This document shows, in pieces, positions 689 through 56,247 of a stretch of DNA of 64,000 nt (position 1 is its first letter; each line of letters starts with the position of its first letter). Source of the stretch: Terriglobia bacterium (GTDB lineage: Bacteria > Acidobacteriota > Terriglobia > JAIQFV01); NCBI GenBank assembly GCA_028716525.1, contig JAQUPQ010000008.1, positions 1-64,000 of the forward strand. The letters are read 5' to 3'. The translations under genes and the position numbers were made by a program. The notes under the pieces are model-generated. The model was not told where the DNA came from. It did no database searches and saw nothing but the letters and a program-made list of their open reading frames with translations.

Positions 689-2224
689 TCACTTTTGGAC
701 CATCATCACGATGGGGGGATTCAGAAGCCGCGAAACGCTGGCGTCCATTTTCCGCAGGAAAAACTGGGGGTAAATCCCCATCCACAGCGCCAACAAAATC
801 AGGGGGACGAGCACCCATTTCTCCCGGCCCGACAGATCGGGCAGCGATTTATTGGCCTCGTGTGTCACCTCACCCAACATGACGCGTTGGTACATCCACA
901 ACATGTAAACCGCACCCCACACCACTCCGGTCGCCGCCAGGGAGGTGTACAGTTTGGCCCTGGCGATCGAGGCGCCAAAGCCGCCGACCAGGATCAAAAA
1001 CTCTCCCACGAACCCATTGAGCAAGGGCAAGCCGATCGACGACAGCGTGATGATCATGAAACAGGTCGCCAGCCGCGGCATGGGCGTAGCCAGACCTCCG
1101 AATTCGGCAATCTCGCGCGTATGCCGGCGCTCATAAATCATCCCCACGATCAAAAACAACCCGCCCGTGGAGATGCCGTGATTCAACATTTGATAAATGG
1201 CGCCTTCCACGCCCTGCATGTTGAAAACGAAAATTCCCAGCACCACAAAACCCAGGTGACTGACAGAGGAATACGCCACCATACGTTTCAAATCGGGTTG
1301 CACCATGGCGACTAGGGCGCCGTATATAATTCCGATAATCGCCAACGTGATGATGAAGGGCGTGAAGGTCCGCGTGGCTTCAGGAAACAACTGCACGTTG
1401 AAACGCAGCAAACCATAGGTTCCCATTTTCAACAAAACACCGGCCAGCAAAACGGATCCGGCGGTGGGCGCTTCGGTGTGAGCGTCGGGCAACCAGGTGT
1501 GCAGCGGGAAGATAGGAACTTTGATGGCAAAGGAAGCGAAGAACGCCAGGAACAGCCAGTTTTGAATGTGAGGATCGATCCACAGCCGGTTGCTGGCGAT
1601 GTTGTTGAGCCATATCGGGAAATCGAAGGTGTAGACGCCGGTGGCGCGAGCATTGAGAAAATAGAGCGACAAGATGGCCACCAACATCAAGGCGGAACCC
1701 ACCGCGGTGTAAATAATAAACTTCACAGCGGCATAAATGCGGCGTCCGTGTCCCCAAATGCCGATCAGGAAGTACATCGGAACGAGCATGACTTCCCAGA
1801 ACACGTAAAAAAGAAACAGATCCAGCGACAGGAACACACCGATCATCCCGGCTTCCAGGAGCAGGATGAAAATGAAAAATTCCTTGACGCGTTTCTCGAT
1901 TCCCTTCCAGGAGGCCAGAATGGAAACCACCGTCAGGAAAGTCGCCAGGATGACCAGCCATAAGCTGATGCCGTCGACTCCCACGTGATATCGAATTCCG
2001 TAAGCGGGAATCCAGGCATGGTTTTCGGCAAACTGAAATCCCGACTGGCCGGAGGAAAAGCGGGCCACCAGATGGAGCGAGAAAACAAAAGTCAGCAGCC
2101 CGAACCCGAAAGCCGTGCGGCGCAGCGTCTCAGCCTTTTCCTTGTTGAGCAACGCCAGGACCAGCGCTCCCACCACGGGCGTCAGAATCAAGAGCGTCAA
2201 GATATATGAATTGAAAAATTCCAT
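689..2224 (-). CDS. nuoM: NADH-quinone oxidoreductase subunit M
   Basis: Proton-pumping antiporter-like subunit in the membrane arm of complex I. The 511 residues match the usual NuoM length and contain about 14 hydrophobic segments. Family stretches visible are FFIFILLLEAGMIGVFLSLD, the conserved FYVFWEVMLVPMYFLIGIWG (the Glu of the antiporter fold), KVPIFPLHTWLPDAHTEAPT and the lysine-bearing VQPDLKRMVAYSSVSHLGF. It sits 6 bp after nuoL and before nuoN, so it is translated as part of the operon. Nothing appears truncated. The start ATG gives the expected N-terminus (MEFFNSYILTLLILTPVVGA). Confidence 0.97.
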   Translation of the reverse strand: MEFFNSYILTLLILTPVVGALVLALLNKEKAETLRRTAFGFGLLTFVFSLHLVARFSSGQSGFQFAENHAWIPAYGIRYHVGVDGISLWLVILATFLTVVSILASWKGIEKRVKEFFIFILLLEAGMIGVFLSLDLFLFYVFWEVMLVPMYFLIGIWGHGRRIYAAVKFIIYTAVGSALMLVAILSLYFLNARATGVYTFDFPIWLNNIASNRLWIDPHIQNWLFLAFFASFAIKVPIFPLHTWLPDAHTEAPTAGSVLLAGVLLKMGTYGLLRFNVQLFPEATRTFTPFIITLAIIGIIYGALVAMVQPDLKRMVAYSSVSHLGFVVLGIFVFNMQGVEGAIYQMLNHGISTGGLFLIVGMIYERRHTREIAEFGGLATPMPRLATCFMIITLSSIGLPLLNGFVGEFLILVGGFGASIARAKLYTSLAATGVVWGAVYMLWMYQRVMLGEVTHEANKSLPDLSGREKWVLVPLILLALWMGIYPQFFLRKMDASVSRLLNPPIVMMVQK

Positions 2225-2230
2225 GGCACC

Positions 2231-4192
<1,962 letters not shown>

Positions 4193-51316: not shown

Positions 51317-51520
51317 TTACTGTGCCGTAGCGCCCAGGCTCTGCTTCAACGCGGCAATCAGGTCGCCTGCCTGAAAGCCTTTTTGACGCGCCGTGTCCTC
51401 AATGGATTGACTCGCCCCGCAGCATACATCCACGTTGAATCGATAGAAGATCGGTAGGGAGTCCGGATGACTCCGAAGAATCTCATTGATGGTTGAGGAC
51501 CCCGTAATTTCTTCCGCCAT
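51317..51520 (-). CDS. Stand-alone ScdA-N (DUF542) domain protein
   Basis: 67 residues from the ATG at 51520, which has AGGGAGC upstream; the track start adds 14 residues. The motif RFNVDVCCGASQSIEDTARQ matches the DUF542/ScdA-N domain, found at the N-terminus of RIC/YtfE/ScdA di-iron proteins that repair Fe-S clusters after nitric oxide or oxidative damage. The CC pair of DxCCGG is kept, although the last Gly is Ala-Ser here. The hemerythrin-like di-iron domain is missing, so it is a single-domain version. It is the last gene of the nnrS-like operon. Confidence 0.8.
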   Translation of the reverse strand: MAEEITGSSTINEILRSHPDSLPIFYRFNVDVCCGASQSIEDTARQKGFQAGDLIAALKQSLGATAQ

Positions 51521-51549
51521 GGTTTGCTCCCTTTTCTCCCACTCCGCTT

Positions 51550-51888
51550 TCAGTGGGAACATGTGCCGGCGCCAGCCGGTGCCGGAATGATCGTAGCCAG
51601 AATATTGATCGATTCGTTCTCCGCAGCCCGCATGCCATGAATCTCCAGCGGCTCGAAAAACATCAAATCGTCTTTGCTGACGCTGTATTCTTCTTCTCCC
51701 TTGCGAATGAACCCGGCGCCGTCAACCACGTGCATAACGACGCAGGCATTCGCCTTGTGAGGTTCCACCGCCTGACCCGCGTTGAGATTGAACAGCACCA
51801 CACGACAAGGGGTGCAGTCGTGCAGCAATCGTGCCGTGTAGCCGTCGGGACGAAAGTCCTGTGCCGATTTCCAGTTTGTTTTGCTCAT
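51550..51888 (-). CDS. Small cupin-domain protein
   Basis: 112 residues from the internal ATG 51888 (MSKTNWKSAQDFRPDGYTAR). A single cupin barrel is indicated by LNAGQAVEPHKANACVVMHV, VVDGAGFIRKGEEEYSVSKD and DLMFFEPLEIHGMRAAE. The two His-bearing motifs could bind a metal, and the C-terminus ends GTCSH. The gene sits 33 bp after the nnrS-like gene and 29 bp before the ScdA-N gene, so co-transcription is likely. The ligand is not predictable; a sensor or metal-handling role in NO or redox stress is an inference from neighbours. Confidence 0.8.
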   Translation of the reverse strand: MSKTNWKSAQDFRPDGYTARLLHDCTPCRVVLFNLNAGQAVEPHKANACVVMHVVDGAGFIRKGEEEYSVSKDDLMFFEPLEIHGMRAAENESINILATIIPAPAGAGTCSH

Positions 51889-51921
51889 TAGCGCATCCTT
51901 CCTTTCCAAAAATCTTTTCCC

Positions 51922-53739
51922 TCATGCCGCCGATTGGCTCGCCAACATGTCGCGCACCTTGTTCAGTGTGCTCACCAACAAGCGGGCATCGAGATTCTTT
52001 ATCCGGGCCGCTTGCTCGACCGTAACGGCATGAGCCATGGTTTTTCTCAAAACCGGATTCCGAAGTTGATCGAAACCAAAATTCAAGAACACATCCAGGG
52101 TGGCGGGGTAACTGGCCAATACCTGCGCCACGGTCCAGGAAGCACTAATGGGGCCCGCCATTTTCTTTTCGACCGCCGCCCGTACATCCGCCCTGCCTTG
52201 AATCGTGGCCACCAGGTTGTACGCGAACAGGCACAGGCCGATTAATTCGAAATAGCCTGAGGTTCCCGCGACCAGGAACATCGATTTTCCAAACGGCACC
52301 GTCAGCGCTTGAAATGCGACGCGCAGCAAATTTCCTGCGGTCATGAATACGAAAGCGGCATTCAGCAACCGGGTGCTGTAGATGCGATGTCCCGTGAAGA
52401 CCGGCACGATGCGGTTGGAATAACCCATGATCATCATGGTGATGAATCCCACGGTCAGGGCGTGCCGATAGGCCCCCATCAACGCATGGGCCACCACTTG
52501 CCCCGTCATGAATTGATAAATCGAAAAACTGAAAATCATGACGGTCGCAGCCGCCAGCCAGGCATAGGATTGATAAACAAATTTCTCGTAATCGCGCGGC
52601 AGCGGAGTGCCGCTGAGATCCACTGTTGATTTCCCAAAAATGTGGAGATTGTAGATGAACCCGACAATGGCCAGAAGTTCCACGCTTGCCGAAGCCAGCA
52701 GCAAGCCCCGTGCCCAGGGAGTCGCCGCCTGGTGCATCATCAAATCGGCCGCCATGCGAGCCATCAAAGCCGCGTTCCATGAGCCAAACACCCAACGATC
52801 CAGGGTGTTATTGGGGGATTTCTTTCCCATGAACACGCCCACGGTCCTGCGGCCGATCCCGAAAATGAACATTGTGATGAATCCATCGAGCTGAAGGTGG
52901 CGCAACGACCAGTTCAAGGCCTCTGGAATGGAGTTGGAATTCTGCGCCGCCATCGTCATCACAATTCCGACATTGGCCAGTCCCATGAGAAGGAACCAGG
53001 TCGATCCGGCCATCAAGTATTTTTCGAAACCCTCGTTGGATTGGGGCGAGGACTGCAGTGTTTTGAGGATAATCAAAACGAATAGACCGATGGCCACCAA
53101 CTCCAACAGCGCGGAGGTGATCACGATTCCCGCAATGTGAGTGTTCCCCGCCATCAGGGGTTGAAAAATTCCCCGCAGCAGCACCCCGGCAGCCATTAGA
53201 ACAAACGACGTTTCCGCAAAAAATTCATTCCACAGTTTTGTGGCTTTCATCCGCGGAACCACGTGATAGGCCACGCCCATGATAAATAACGAAACCCAGC
53301 CGAAAATCTGCACGTGTCCGTGGGCTTGGTTGGAGGGATCCAGCCACTTGGGAAAATCGCGGTGAATGGCAATGAGGGTGAGATTGATGACGCCCCACAC
53401 CACGCCGCCGGTCAAGGTGAAGGCCAGGGCGGCAAAGATGAATCGTTTATACAGCGGTATTTCTTGAGGCCCTTGCGCTGAAGCTTCCTTTTGCAGCGGT
53501 TCAGTCCGGATGAACTCCTTGACTTCCGAAATCAAGGTTTGGGGATTGATGTTGTGAACCACGGCAAACCATTGCAGCGGCTCGTCGGGCCCGCGCTCTC
53601 CGCCGCAGCCCATAAGCCCGTAACGAGTGAACAGCTCCACGGTTTGAGGAAAGGCGGCAATAATGGCGCGAATGTTGGTGTTCGAGCCGATCGCATCCAC
53701 CGTCAAAACTTCATTTTCTTTCGCGAGCGATGTGCTCAT
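51922..53739 (-). CDS. NnrS-like membrane protein flanked by two redox-disulfide/DUF1858-type domains
   Basis: 605 residues. Residues ~18-78 form a small domain like the ScdA-N/hybrid-cluster-associated type (FTRYGLMGCGGERGPDEPLQ). Residues ~98-515 form about 12 membrane helices of the NnrS type. His residues sit in recurring H-x4-5-G-[FW] blocks: AHGHVQIFGWVSLFIMGVAY, RHLQLDGFITMFIFGIG and RHALTVGFITMMIMGYSNRI. Residues ~533-597 form a DUF1858-like domain (TVAQVLASYPATLDVFLNFG). NnrS proteins are haem/copper membrane proteins linked to NO stress. A TGAC-N4-GTCA dyad and a -10-like hexamer lie upstream. Confidence 0.82.
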   Translation of the reverse strand: MSTSLAKENEVLTVDAIGSNTNIRAIIAAFPQTVELFTRYGLMGCGGERGPDEPLQWFAVVHNINPQTLISEVKEFIRTEPLQKEASAQGPQEIPLYKRFIFAALAFTLTGGVVWGVINLTLIAIHRDFPKWLDPSNQAHGHVQIFGWVSLFIMGVAYHVVPRMKATKLWNEFFAETSFVLMAAGVLLRGIFQPLMAGNTHIAGIVITSALLELVAIGLFVLIILKTLQSSPQSNEGFEKYLMAGSTWFLLMGLANVGIVMTMAAQNSNSIPEALNWSLRHLQLDGFITMFIFGIGRRTVGVFMGKKSPNNTLDRWVFGSWNAALMARMAADLMMHQAATPWARGLLLASASVELLAIVGFIYNLHIFGKSTVDLSGTPLPRDYEKFVYQSYAWLAAATVMIFSFSIYQFMTGQVVAHALMGAYRHALTVGFITMMIMGYSNRIVPVFTGHRIYSTRLLNAAFVFMTAGNLLRVAFQALTVPFGKSMFLVAGTSGYFELIGLCLFAYNLVATIQGRADVRAAVEKKMAGPISASWTVAQVLASYPATLDVFLNFGFDQLRNPVLRKTMAHAVTVEQAARIKNLDARLLVSTLNKVRDMLASQSAA

Positions 53740-53775: not shown

Positions 53776-53816
53776 AGGATATCCCTGGACCTTTTTGGGG
53801 GCCATGACTTATGTCA
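53776..53816 (-). promoter_or_regulatory. FNR/Dnr-type operator and -10 box before the nnrS-like gene
   Basis: On the minus strand the perfect dyad TGACATAAGTCA (plus 53805-53816) is centred 32 bp before a -10-like TATCCT (plus 53776-53781). This predicts a class II activator position near -41.5. The transcript would begin about 30 bp before the ATG at 53739. The binding protein is probably the Crp/Fnr regulator encoded at 54350. Confidence 0.65.
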
Positions 53817-53823
53817 CGAGAAG

Positions 53824-53896
53824 AAGTTGGGGACAGACACCTTCAGTCCAAGAATCCCTCGATTCTTTCAAAAACTGGTGTCTGTCCCCGGAGTGG
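53824..53896. repeat. 73-bp hairpin repeat, copy 1
   Basis: The outer 13-bp stem GGGGACAGACACC/GGTGTCTGTCCCC encloses a smaller stem AGAATC-CCTC-GATTCT. It is 70 of 73 identical to copy 2 (54111-54183), in the same orientation. It begins 8 bp from the nnrS operator and supplies the C-terminal codons and stop of the RelE-like ORF. The motif GGGGACAGACACC is familiar from intergenic repeats in many bacteria, often thought to be linked to REP-type transposases; that link is recall, not evidence here. Confidence 0.88.
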
Positions 53897-54158
53897 CATC
53901 GCGCTCTCGGCGGTGGCCTATCCGAAGGATCACAACATCATGGCCCAAGAGCGCGAAGATGACTCGGTAGTCCCCCACCCGAAATTTCCTCAGCCCGGCA
54001 AACGGCCCTCTCAGAAGCGGATACTTCTCGGCGTTCTTTGACAATTCTGCTTCAATGCGATCCAGCACGCGACGGGCTTCGCCCCTGGACAGCTTCTTAA
54101 GGTCGCGGAAAAGTTGGGGACAGACACCTTCAGTCCAAGAATCCCTCGATTCTTTCAT
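53868..54158 (-). pseudogene. RelE/ParE-type toxin fragment between two repeat copies
   Basis: The unique 214 bp between the repeats encode FRDLKKLSRGEARRVLDRIE, a central region, and KFRVGDYRVIFALLGHDVVI then LRIGHRRE. This is the body of a RelE/ParE toxin from its first helix to the end of the last strand. About ten N-terminal residues, the first beta-strand of the fold, are absent. The 96-codon ORF exists only because the right-hand repeat supplies an ATG and 16 codons, and the left one supplies the end. No antitoxin gene is adjacent. I read it as a remnant, although translation of the chimera cannot be excluded. Confidence 0.72.
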
Positions 54159-54183
54159 AGATTGGTGTCTGTCCCCGGAGTGG
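54111..54183. repeat. 73-bp hairpin repeat, copy 2
   Basis: Same 13-bp outer stem and inner AGAATC/GATTCT stem as copy 1, with three differences near the loop. On the minus strand it provides the start codon and first 16 codons of the RelE-like ORF. The 166 bp beyond it up to the regulator gene contain a small CCCCCA/TGGGGG hairpin and no gene. Confidence 0.88.
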
Positions 54184-54349: not shown

Positions 54350-55042
54350 CTATTTCTTGAGCCCGGAGGCGATTTCTTTGAGTTCAGGGAGAGAATGAAC
54401 GGTGATGTGTCGGCCGTCGGTGGAAATTAGTTTTTCATCCTGAAAACGGCCGAGCGTGCGCGACACCAGTTCACGGACTGTACCCAACTGGGCGGCAATC
54501 TCCTGCTGAGAATACGCCAGTTCAAACTCGACCCCGGCGCCGGTTTTACGACCTTTGCCTTCCGCCAACGTGACCAGCCGCCGAGCCAAGCGTTGACTGA
54601 CTTCTTTCAATGATAATTCCTCCACCAACATGACCATTCTCCGCAAACGCATGCTGAGGGAGCGGATGACCGCCATGGCGATTTCGGGATGTTGTCGCAG
54701 GGTGGCATCGAAATCGCGCCGTGAAATGAAGAGCAGCTCCGCCTCGTCGACGCATTGCGCGGCCGCCGGATACTTTCCTCCGTCAAACAGCGGCAGCTCC
54801 GCGACCGGCGTTCCCGGCAATTGCATGTCCAGGGATTGTTCGCGTCCGCTCGCAGAGCACTTCAAAATCCTCACGGCGCCCCGCACCACCACAAACAAAC
54901 CTTTGCATTCGTCGCCCTCTGCAAACAGGAATTCGCCTTTGCCGTAGGTTTTCTCAACCGCGTGCTGAGCCAGCGCCGCAATTTCAGTCTCGCCCAGCTC
55001 GTGAAAGAAGGGAACGCGTTTTAAGAGTGCGGTTTTATCCAT
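54350..55042 (-). CDS. Crp/Fnr-family transcriptional regulator
   Basis: 230 residues from ATG 55042, preceded by AGGAAGGAG; the track start adds nine. An N-terminal cyclic-nucleotide-type beta-roll (GEFLFAEGDECKGLFVVVRG) is followed by a long dimer helix. The C-terminal helix-turn-helix is YSQQEIAAQLGTVRELVSRT. The recognition helix keeps the E-x2-S-R pattern of FNR. The N-terminal cysteine cluster of FNR is absent, so it is nearer the Dnr/NnrR-like haem or ligand-sensing types. It stands between the nnrS-like and ywiC-like genes, which carry matching operators. A small dyad ACAAAT-ATG-ATTTGT lies just upstream of its own leader. Confidence 0.9.
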   Translation of the reverse strand: MDKTALLKRVPFFHELGETEIAALAQHAVEKTYGKGEFLFAEGDECKGLFVVVRGAVRILKCSASGREQSLDMQLPGTPVAELPLFDGGKYPAAAQCVDEAELLFISRRDFDATLRQHPEIAMAVIRSLSMRLRRMVMLVEELSLKEVSQRLARRLVTLAEGKGRKTGAGVEFELAYSQQEIAAQLGTVRELVSRTLGRFQDEKLISTDGRHITVHSLPELKEIASGLKK

Positions 55043-55178
55043 GGAACTCTCCTTCCTGCACACCGACAAATATGATTTGTGGAACCTTTTGTCTCGTTTA
55101 GTTTATCTAATTCAAGGGGGATGTTCAAAGGGCAGCTCTTGGCAATATGGATGGGTCCTGGTCGAAATGCCTGAAGAA

Positions 55179-55344: not shown

Positions 55345-55384
55345 TGACAAAAGTCATCTAGCCGCTGGTTGGAGGAATTATAAT
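55345..55384 (+). promoter_or_regulatory. FNR/Dnr-type operator and -10 box before the ywiC-like gene
   Basis: The perfect dyad TGACAAAAGTCA (55345-55356) is centred 31 bp from a perfect TATAAT (55379-55384). With a start near 55391 the dyad is at about -41, the class II FNR position, and no -35 box is needed. Half-sites match those before the nnrS-like gene, which supports a common regulator. Confidence 0.72.
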
Positions 55385-55440
55385 CGCACCGCATGAGTTC
55401 GTACTGAATGAACGTTTTTGAGGAATCCGAAGAACCCCTC

Positions 55441-56247
55441 ATGACACTCAAGCACATGCTTCCGAAAGAGCACGGCACTTGGGCCATGCTGTTGGCGCCC
55501 TGGATAGTGGGTTGTGGAGTAGCCCGGCGTTTCGATCACGCCGCTCTGCTCTCGCTGGCGGCCATTCTGATGTTCTTTCTGGCGCAGAATCAGATGATGA
55601 ACTGGATGCGGCTGCATTTTGCCAACCAACCGGATTCCAACGCTCTCCGGCGAACCGAGCTTTTGCTGCTGGTGTTTGGCTTGATCGGAATTCTGATTGT
55701 TTCGCCCCTGTGGGTGGTCGACAAACTGCACGGGCTGATTTATTTCGCGCTCCTGGCGTTGCTTCTGACCGCCGCTGCCCTCTTCCTGGTTCAAAAAAAG
55801 AAGGACCGCTCGATCGCCGGGCAGATTCTGGCGGCCGCCGGGCTGTCGTTGAGCGCGCCGTTGGCTTACTACTCCACTTCACGCACTCTTGACCACAACG
55901 CGGGGATTCTGTGGCTGGTGAATTTCCTCTTCTTTTTGGGCGGGGTGTTTTACGTTCAGATGAAGATTGATGCCCTGGCACGAAGAAAATCCTTCCAACG
56001 CTTGTCCGACAGGTTCCGATTTGCCGCTGGGACGTTGGTGATGGACTCACTTCTTGTTCTGGTGGCCTTCGGATCCCTGCGATGGAGCTCTTTCTCCGGC
56101 TGGGCCACTTTGGCATTCGCGCCCACAGCCATTCAGGCGATCGCCGGAACAATCCGTCTCGACCACCCCGCTGTTTTGAAACGTGTCGGAATCATCTCCA
56201 CGATTCATTCCATCCTTTTTGTCGCCCTTTTCATCATCTTGGCTTGA
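55441..56247 (+). CDS. YwiC-like integral membrane protein
   Basis: 268 residues from ATG 55441, where the family start LKHMLPKEHGTWAMLLAPW begins; the track start at 55408 would add 11 residues and leave a leader of only ~17 nt. About eight hydrophobic segments follow, with SLSAPLAYYSTSRTLDHNAG in the middle. YwiC belongs to the anaerobic fnr/nar neighbourhood in Bacillus subtilis, and its biochemical role is unknown. The FNR-type promoter just upstream fits that link. Confidence 0.82.
   Translation: MTLKHMLPKEHGTWAMLLAPWIVGCGVARRFDHAALLSLAAILMFFLAQNQMMNWMRLHFANQPDSNALRRTELLLLVFGLIGILIVSPLWVVDKLHGLIYFALLALLLTAAALFLVQKKKDRSIAGQILAAAGLSLSAPLAYYSTSRTLDHNAGILWLVNFLFFLGGVFYVQMKIDALARRKSFQRLSDRFRFAAGTLVMDSLLVLVAFGSLRWSSFSGWATLAFAPTAIQAIAGTIRLDHPAVLKRVGIISTIHSILFVALFIILA

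Follow-up and report, generated by a model that had tools for sequence, protein, structure and literature searches.

The genes nnrS and dnrN, the latter encoding the YtfE/RIC protein, are core members of NO regulons (PMC1274295). In YtfE, the dithiol of the ScdA_N domain is next to the di-iron channel and has an effect on the supply of electrons, and the physiological reductant is not known (PMC9052748). A protein with a DUF1858 domain has also been described under the control of NnrR (PMC6710368). Our literature search found no publication treating both NnrS and ScdA.

Here we analyzed a gene for a 605-amino-acid membrane protein carried on a 64,000-nucleotide stretch of Terriglobia DNA (the window). 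The ORF is on the minus strand, the plus frame being interrupted by stops. Its start codon is an ATG at 53739, preceded by the ribosome-binding site AGGAGAAGGA, and two small genes follow on the same strand, tightly packed.

51922..53739, minus strand: the 605-aa membrane protein, with an ScdA_N-like domain, a 12-TM core of the haem-copper oxidase fold and a DUF1858 domain
51550..51909, minus strand: a cupin of 119 aa, second gene of the putative operon
51317..51562, minus strand: a free ScdA_N protein of the CC type, 81 aa, or 67 aa (51317-51520) from an inner ATG at 51520; the CC motif is present
54350..55069, minus strand: a regulator of the Crp/Fnr family, upstream of the core gene

We propose, with a probability of roughly 55%, that the 605-aa protein serves the NO and Fe-S-repair response as a haem b module that is anchored in the membrane and would be coupled to ScdA_N. 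The protein is divided as follows.

53509..53694, minus strand: N-terminal domain, residues 16-77, of the type GCGGxxGPxE...H
52198..53454, minus strand: 12-TM core, residues 96-514, in which three four-helix units follow one another in register (AlphaFold2 model, Foldseek matches to CcoN and NorB, repeat analysis)
51952..52155, minus strand: C-terminal DUF1858 domain, residues 529-596, devoid of cysteine

The core is of the NnrS type, as an earlier note on this DNA had proposed: it scores 41.2 bits against PF05940, whose cut-off is 28. It also scores 40.1 bits against COX1 (PF00115; cut-off 34.8). An AlphaFold2 model computed from an alignment of 57 sequences (pLDDT 92.0, pTM 0.87) shows 12 long helices, the number of transmembrane helices that characterizes NnrS. 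Foldseek placed the cbb3 oxidase subunit CcoN (3mk7_A) at the top of the PDB matches, with an E-value of 1.4e-9, a probability of 1.00 and a TM score of 0.74 on the target; the NO reductase NorB (cNOR, 3o0r_B) came next, then other oxidases. Profile-profile alignment (hhalign) matched the core with CcoN from end to end, over 398 columns at an E-value of 3.4e-9; the profile was built from 17 sequences of the CcoN type, of which 10 exceeded the ccoN cut-off and 7 did not. The alignment with two canonical NnrS sequences was of similar strength (E 4.3e-9). Because the two alignments are nearly equal, the sequence and the model together place the core, predicted as a full 12-helix protein of the haem-copper oxidase fold, between NnrS and CcoN. 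The core thus differs from NnrS in matching COX1 equally well, and the whole protein differs from NnrS, CcoN and NorB by its added ScdA_N-like and DUF1858 domains.

Oxidase subunit I has its termini in the cytoplasm. When both ends of the 605-aa protein were assumed to be cytoplasmic, the N-in model gave 20 Lys and Arg near the inside loops against 4 near the outside loops. This bias indicates that both small domains should be located at the cytoplasmic face.

The two ends of the protein were predicted in the earlier note as ScdA-N-like and DUF1858-like, and profile searches recovered both. Residues 531-588 match DUF1858 (PF08984) with 81.4 bits (E 5e-23), far over the cut-off of 32.2, and have a solved homologue, 2fi0. 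The N-terminal domain matches TIGR03980 over residues 19-73 (E 1.3e-10, 41.2 bits, under the NCBIfam cut-off of 44.95) and ScdA_N (PF04405) over residues 20-74 (E 1e-4, 22.3 bits, under the Pfam cut-off of 32.5). It falls short of ScdA_N proper by this score and by GCGG in place of the expected CCGG, and of the TIGR03980 redox disulphide family by its score and by a single Cys where a pair is expected. Since both families are matched, each under its cut-off, the domain is by profile a divergent but real member of the ScdA_N/TIGR03980 superfamily. Profile comparison also matched it to the solved structures 2k53 and 2k5e, so that both ends carry the same small helical domains as the free TIGR03980 and DUF1858 proteins, here fused to a membrane core. 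Among the 57 aligned sequences, NnrS (at E ≤ 0.01), DUF1858 and TIGR03980 were matched by all, COX1 by 39 and ScdA_N by 35, some of the DUF1858, TIGR03980 and ScdA_N matches falling on another domain of the same chain.

A redox disulphide had been suggested for these fused domains, and the cysteine content rules it out. The only cysteines of the protein are C45 in the N-terminal domain and C503 in TM12; the C-terminal domain has none (in the alignment, position 578 is a Cys in 31 of the 57 sequences), so neither an intradomain disulphide nor the pair of the small TIGR03980 and DUF1858 proteins can form. The motif GCGGxxGPxE...FAxxH of the N-terminal domain is strongly conserved (C45 in 56/57, H62 in 57/57) and may form a metal or thiol site. 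Compared with RIC/YtfE/ScdA (TIGR03652), with which it has the ScdA_N superfamily in common, the 605-aa protein has GCGG plus an invariant His in place of CC, and gave no match to the hemerythrin di-iron domain.

The positions of the haem ligands were mapped on the alignment with CcoN. A qNOR set was dropped for this use, as its hhalign match was purely local, between TM2 of the core and the HGH motif of qNOR TM10. Three residues of the core are of particular relevance.

53320..53322, minus strand: H140 in TM2, an invariant residue that aligns with the His of CcoN TM2 which binds the low-spin haem b
52462..52464, minus strand: H426 in TM10, likewise invariant, which aligns with the His that closes the HxH motif of CcoN TM10
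52897..52899, minus strand: H281 in TM6, where CcoN has its CuB-ligand His

H140 (RPLH / QAHGH in the alignment with CcoN), H426 and R425 are present in all 57 sequences; H140 and H426 thus occupy the TM2 and TM10 positions of the low-spin bis-His pair of the COX1 superfamily, retained in CcoN and NorB, by the ligand roles of the aligned CcoN residues. The HxH of TM2 and the His of TM10 also align with the two canonical NnrS sequences. A binuclear centre uses a His in TM6, a His-His pair in TM7 and a high-spin His in TM10; the TM7 pair is absent from the core in both the CcoN alignment and the 57-sequence alignment, and the high-spin position corresponds, in ungapped helical register, to Y424 (His in 3/57). 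One aligner put H418 at that position instead of Y424, across a gap of six residues. The earlier note had spoken of a haem/copper centre. Since the low-spin ligands are kept but the TM7 His-His is gone, a single haem b with two His ligands is the more likely cofactor; the core, as far as the alignments tell, most likely holds one such haem and no catalytic binuclear centre.

The same residues bear on whether the protein could be an active NO-reducing or NO-scavenging enzyme, in which H281, or an Asp in TM6, would replace the CuB/FeB ligands together with H142 and H418. H281 does sit at the CuB-His position in the clade of the window protein and a few others (13/57), with Asp in 35/57, H142 and H418 are found in 52/57 and 55/57 sequences, and an NO reductase is among the best fold matches. 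We nevertheless regard such an enzyme as quite unlikely, given the missing TM7 pair and given that, in ungapped register, the position that normally supplies the haem b3 ligand has no conserved His; moreover, the symmetry of the repeat would make H142 face another pore.

Three His blocks in the core had been seen in the earlier note as an internal repeat. The repeat stands, whereas the middle His (H281) cannot be taken as conserved, and what the three blocks have in common throughout is the glycine in the GF/GW pair. When the core was cut into three four-helix units of 135 residues in block register, hhalign matched the units with E-values of 8e-10, 6e-17 and 8e-19. The matches were also obtained with 17 sequences only (E 5e-12 to 1.5e-23) and with the 605-aa protein alone (E 3e-4 to 1.4e-7). 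The scores lie between 59 and 108, whereas 40 sets of block-shuffled columns did not exceed 25 and reversed columns did not exceed 21. Oxidase subunit I has a threefold pseudo-symmetry known from structures, and CcoN treated in the same way also gave in-register matches, though weaker (scores 35 to 63). Judged by profile alignment, the threefold repeat of this core is real and plain at the sequence level.

A profile query of genome contigs retrieved 234 relatives, of which 80 were kept; a single-sequence query retrieved none. Their hosts include Acidobacteriota, Armatimonadota, the anammox Scalindua, Brocadiaceae, other Planctomycetota, Chloroflexi, Omnitrophota, Hydrogenedentota and more, the closest relatives (45-46% identity) being from Armatimonadota. 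One carrier of the gene, Pyrinomonas methylaliphatogenes (L118), is culturable. Denoting the CC-type ScdA_N as A, the GCGG domain as B and DUF1858 as C, the 80 relatives are B-core-C (48), B-core (16) and A-B-core-C (12), with one case each of A-A-B-core-C, core-C-A, B-core-C-C and the core alone. Some Terriglobia genomes (L003-L008 with L022-L026) have two core proteins, adjacent in several cases, one with the N-terminal GCGG domain and the other with a C-terminal DUF1858-like region, that is, the architecture of the window protein in split form. The genome of the window has a second paralogue (locus L075, G000:C19:1-14000, core gene at 1958-3163) that consists of the core only (30% identity), without the small domains and the middle His.

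The CC-type ScdA_N is fused in the same chain in 14 of the 80 relatives, stands in an adjacent small gene in 11, as in the window (most overlapping or within about 200 bp), and in a nearby larger multi-domain gene in 24. These larger genes are mostly RIC/YtfE-like by their size (about 240 aa), and one representative scored above the TIGR03652 cut-off. At the other 31 loci the domain was not seen within the flanking DNA covered, some flanks being short. On a quick tree the fusion state changed at least four times; the window protein grouped with Armatimonadota (support 99), and then with the A-B-core-C proteins of anammox bacteria (support 89). One of the fusions (L143) is C-terminal, and a natural A-B-core-C fusion (L091) is modeled well (pLDDT 87.3). 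The repeated fusions, seen in genomic sequence, strongly support the free ScdA_N protein as a partner of the membrane protein, as had been suspected from the window.

The anammox Scalindua and Brocadiaceae (L078-L087) have the full A-B-core-C protein, L084 with two ScdA_N domains in tandem; these proteins may be of interest for NO handling in anammox. A Chloroflexi relative (L147, 1889-4177) carries a SufT-like FeS_assembly_P domain at its C-terminus (E 7e-24); fusions of DUF59 with DUF1858 have been reported (PMC4982691).

The genes around the core were compared at 81 loci, the window included. The gene context is NO-related, like that of NnrS: qNOR is found at 11 loci, NarH-like genes at 10, NasC-like at 12, Rrf2 at 13, Crp/Fnr at 14 (the window and 13 relatives), hemerythrins at 9 and 8, and the cluster of the operon's cupin at 13. 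Radical SAM genes of the AhbD/TIGR04053 type occur at 15 loci. Such haem-synthase-like genes, and the qNOR neighbours, would fit a haem or copper delivery or assembly factor that serves oxidases or NO reductases and docks through its small domains. We hold this to be very improbable: the links to ScdA_N, RIC and SufT concern Fe-S clusters and not haem insertion, and no oxidase or NOR gene lies beside the core gene in the window. The links point instead to the haem b module acting with Fe-S-repair proteins. In the genome of the window (completeness 96.5%), only two ScdA_N matches were obtained, both at the core locus, hence no RIC was found; an NO reductase and a hybrid cluster protein were likewise not found there. 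The link with NO therefore rests on the relatives and on a regulatory site, of which the locus has two copies.

53805..53816: TGACTTATGTCA, a palindrome about 70 bp ahead of the start codon of the core gene, an FNR/HcpR-like site
55345..55356: another TGAC-N4-GTCA site, in the gap that separates the Crp/Fnr gene from a YwiC-like gene

The consensus of HcpR is TTGAC-N4-GTCAA (PMC1274295). TGAC-N4-GTCA occurs within 300 bp upstream of 25 of the 81 core genes (the window and 24 of the 80 relatives) against 48 of 735 other ORFs at the same loci (Fisher p 1.4e-9, the counts not being phylogenetically independent as some loci are closely related). Control motifs with other spacings or palindromes were found upstream of 0 or 1 of the 81 core genes. 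Some of the 48 other sites stand ahead of RIC-like and qNOR genes. The 64-kb window contains three such sites, including the two at the core locus. The broad FNR-like pattern TTG-N8-CAA was rejected as uninformative for the core gene, with 40 sites in the whole window against 24 expected.

The second site lies about 55 bp upstream of the divergent gene for the YwiC-like membrane protein (55408-56247), and YwiC-like genes are present at 4 of the 81 loci. Two 80-bp copies, 93% identical (53817-53896 and 54104-54183) and with inverted ends GGGGACAGACACC, bracket a ParE-like ORF (53868-54158); the arrangement has the look of a small mobile cassette placed between the Crp/Fnr gene and the operon. 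Because it is flanked by the two repeat copies, the ParE-like ORF was not counted as a member of the operon.

The recurrent Crp/Fnr gene would also suit a sensor of NO or of the haem state. The core would then bind NO, or would read the redox state of the quinones by way of its haem, and the ScdA_N/DUF1858 domains, rather than carrying out chemistry, would transmit the signal to regulators in the cytosol. Thermus DrpB, with an N-terminal DUF1858, does act on the expression of nitrate-respiration genes (PMC6282519), and the single Cys of the GCGG domain is compatible with such a role. The partners, however, are repair or di-iron proteins (RIC, the SufT-like domain) more than signalling domains, and among the 57 aligned members we found no fusion to a kinase, a response regulator or a DNA-binding domain, apart from one weak HTH_Tnp_1 match. 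A sensor thus appears unlikely, and the haem b module coupled to ScdA_N remains our preferred reading.

According to this reading, the 12-helix core would hold a single low-spin haem, bound by H140 in TM2 and H426 in TM10, with no binuclear centre for the reduction of O2 or NO. The cytoplasmic ends, of the ScdA_N/DUF1858 superfamily, would bind the CC-type ScdA_N protein, whose gene is the second one downstream; this domain would act in trans in the window, as a fused domain in relatives, and elsewhere as the N-terminal domain of RIC/YtfE. The core would be coupled to ScdA_N through electrons or thiols, and in the complex the membrane haem would exchange electrons, or NO, with the dithiol of ScdA_N or with a di-iron partner; here we infer the nature and direction of the transfer and the physiological ligand. 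Expression would probably be controlled at TGAC-N4-GTCA by a regulator of the Crp/Fnr type. By analogy with YtfE, whose ScdA_N dithiol affects electron supply (PMC9052748), a dithiol relay is a plausible step. Direct transfer to the cytosolic domains is hard to reconcile with the predicted location of the haem: its ligands are on the periplasmic side, distant from these domains, and electrons would have to travel by way of an intermediate.

More tentatively, and with more doubt than conviction, these proteins could constitute an undescribed, widespread branch of the haem-copper oxidases that has lost the catalytic site and become a membrane electron (or NO) partner of the ScdA_N/RIC Fe-S-repair proteins, keeping in its sequence a four-helix triplication that is much fainter in the cbb3 oxidase. 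The molecular role of NnrS and the cellular reductant of RIC/YtfE (PMC9052748) are standing questions on which this protein bears, and the natural fusions of an NnrS-type core with a CC-type ScdA_N, which occur in anammox bacteria and in soil bacteria, connect these questions. Such fusions, with both parts in one polypeptide, allow the coupling to be tested. The predicted site for a single bis-His haem and the triplication visible in the sequence are also relevant to the origin of oxidases and NO reductases.
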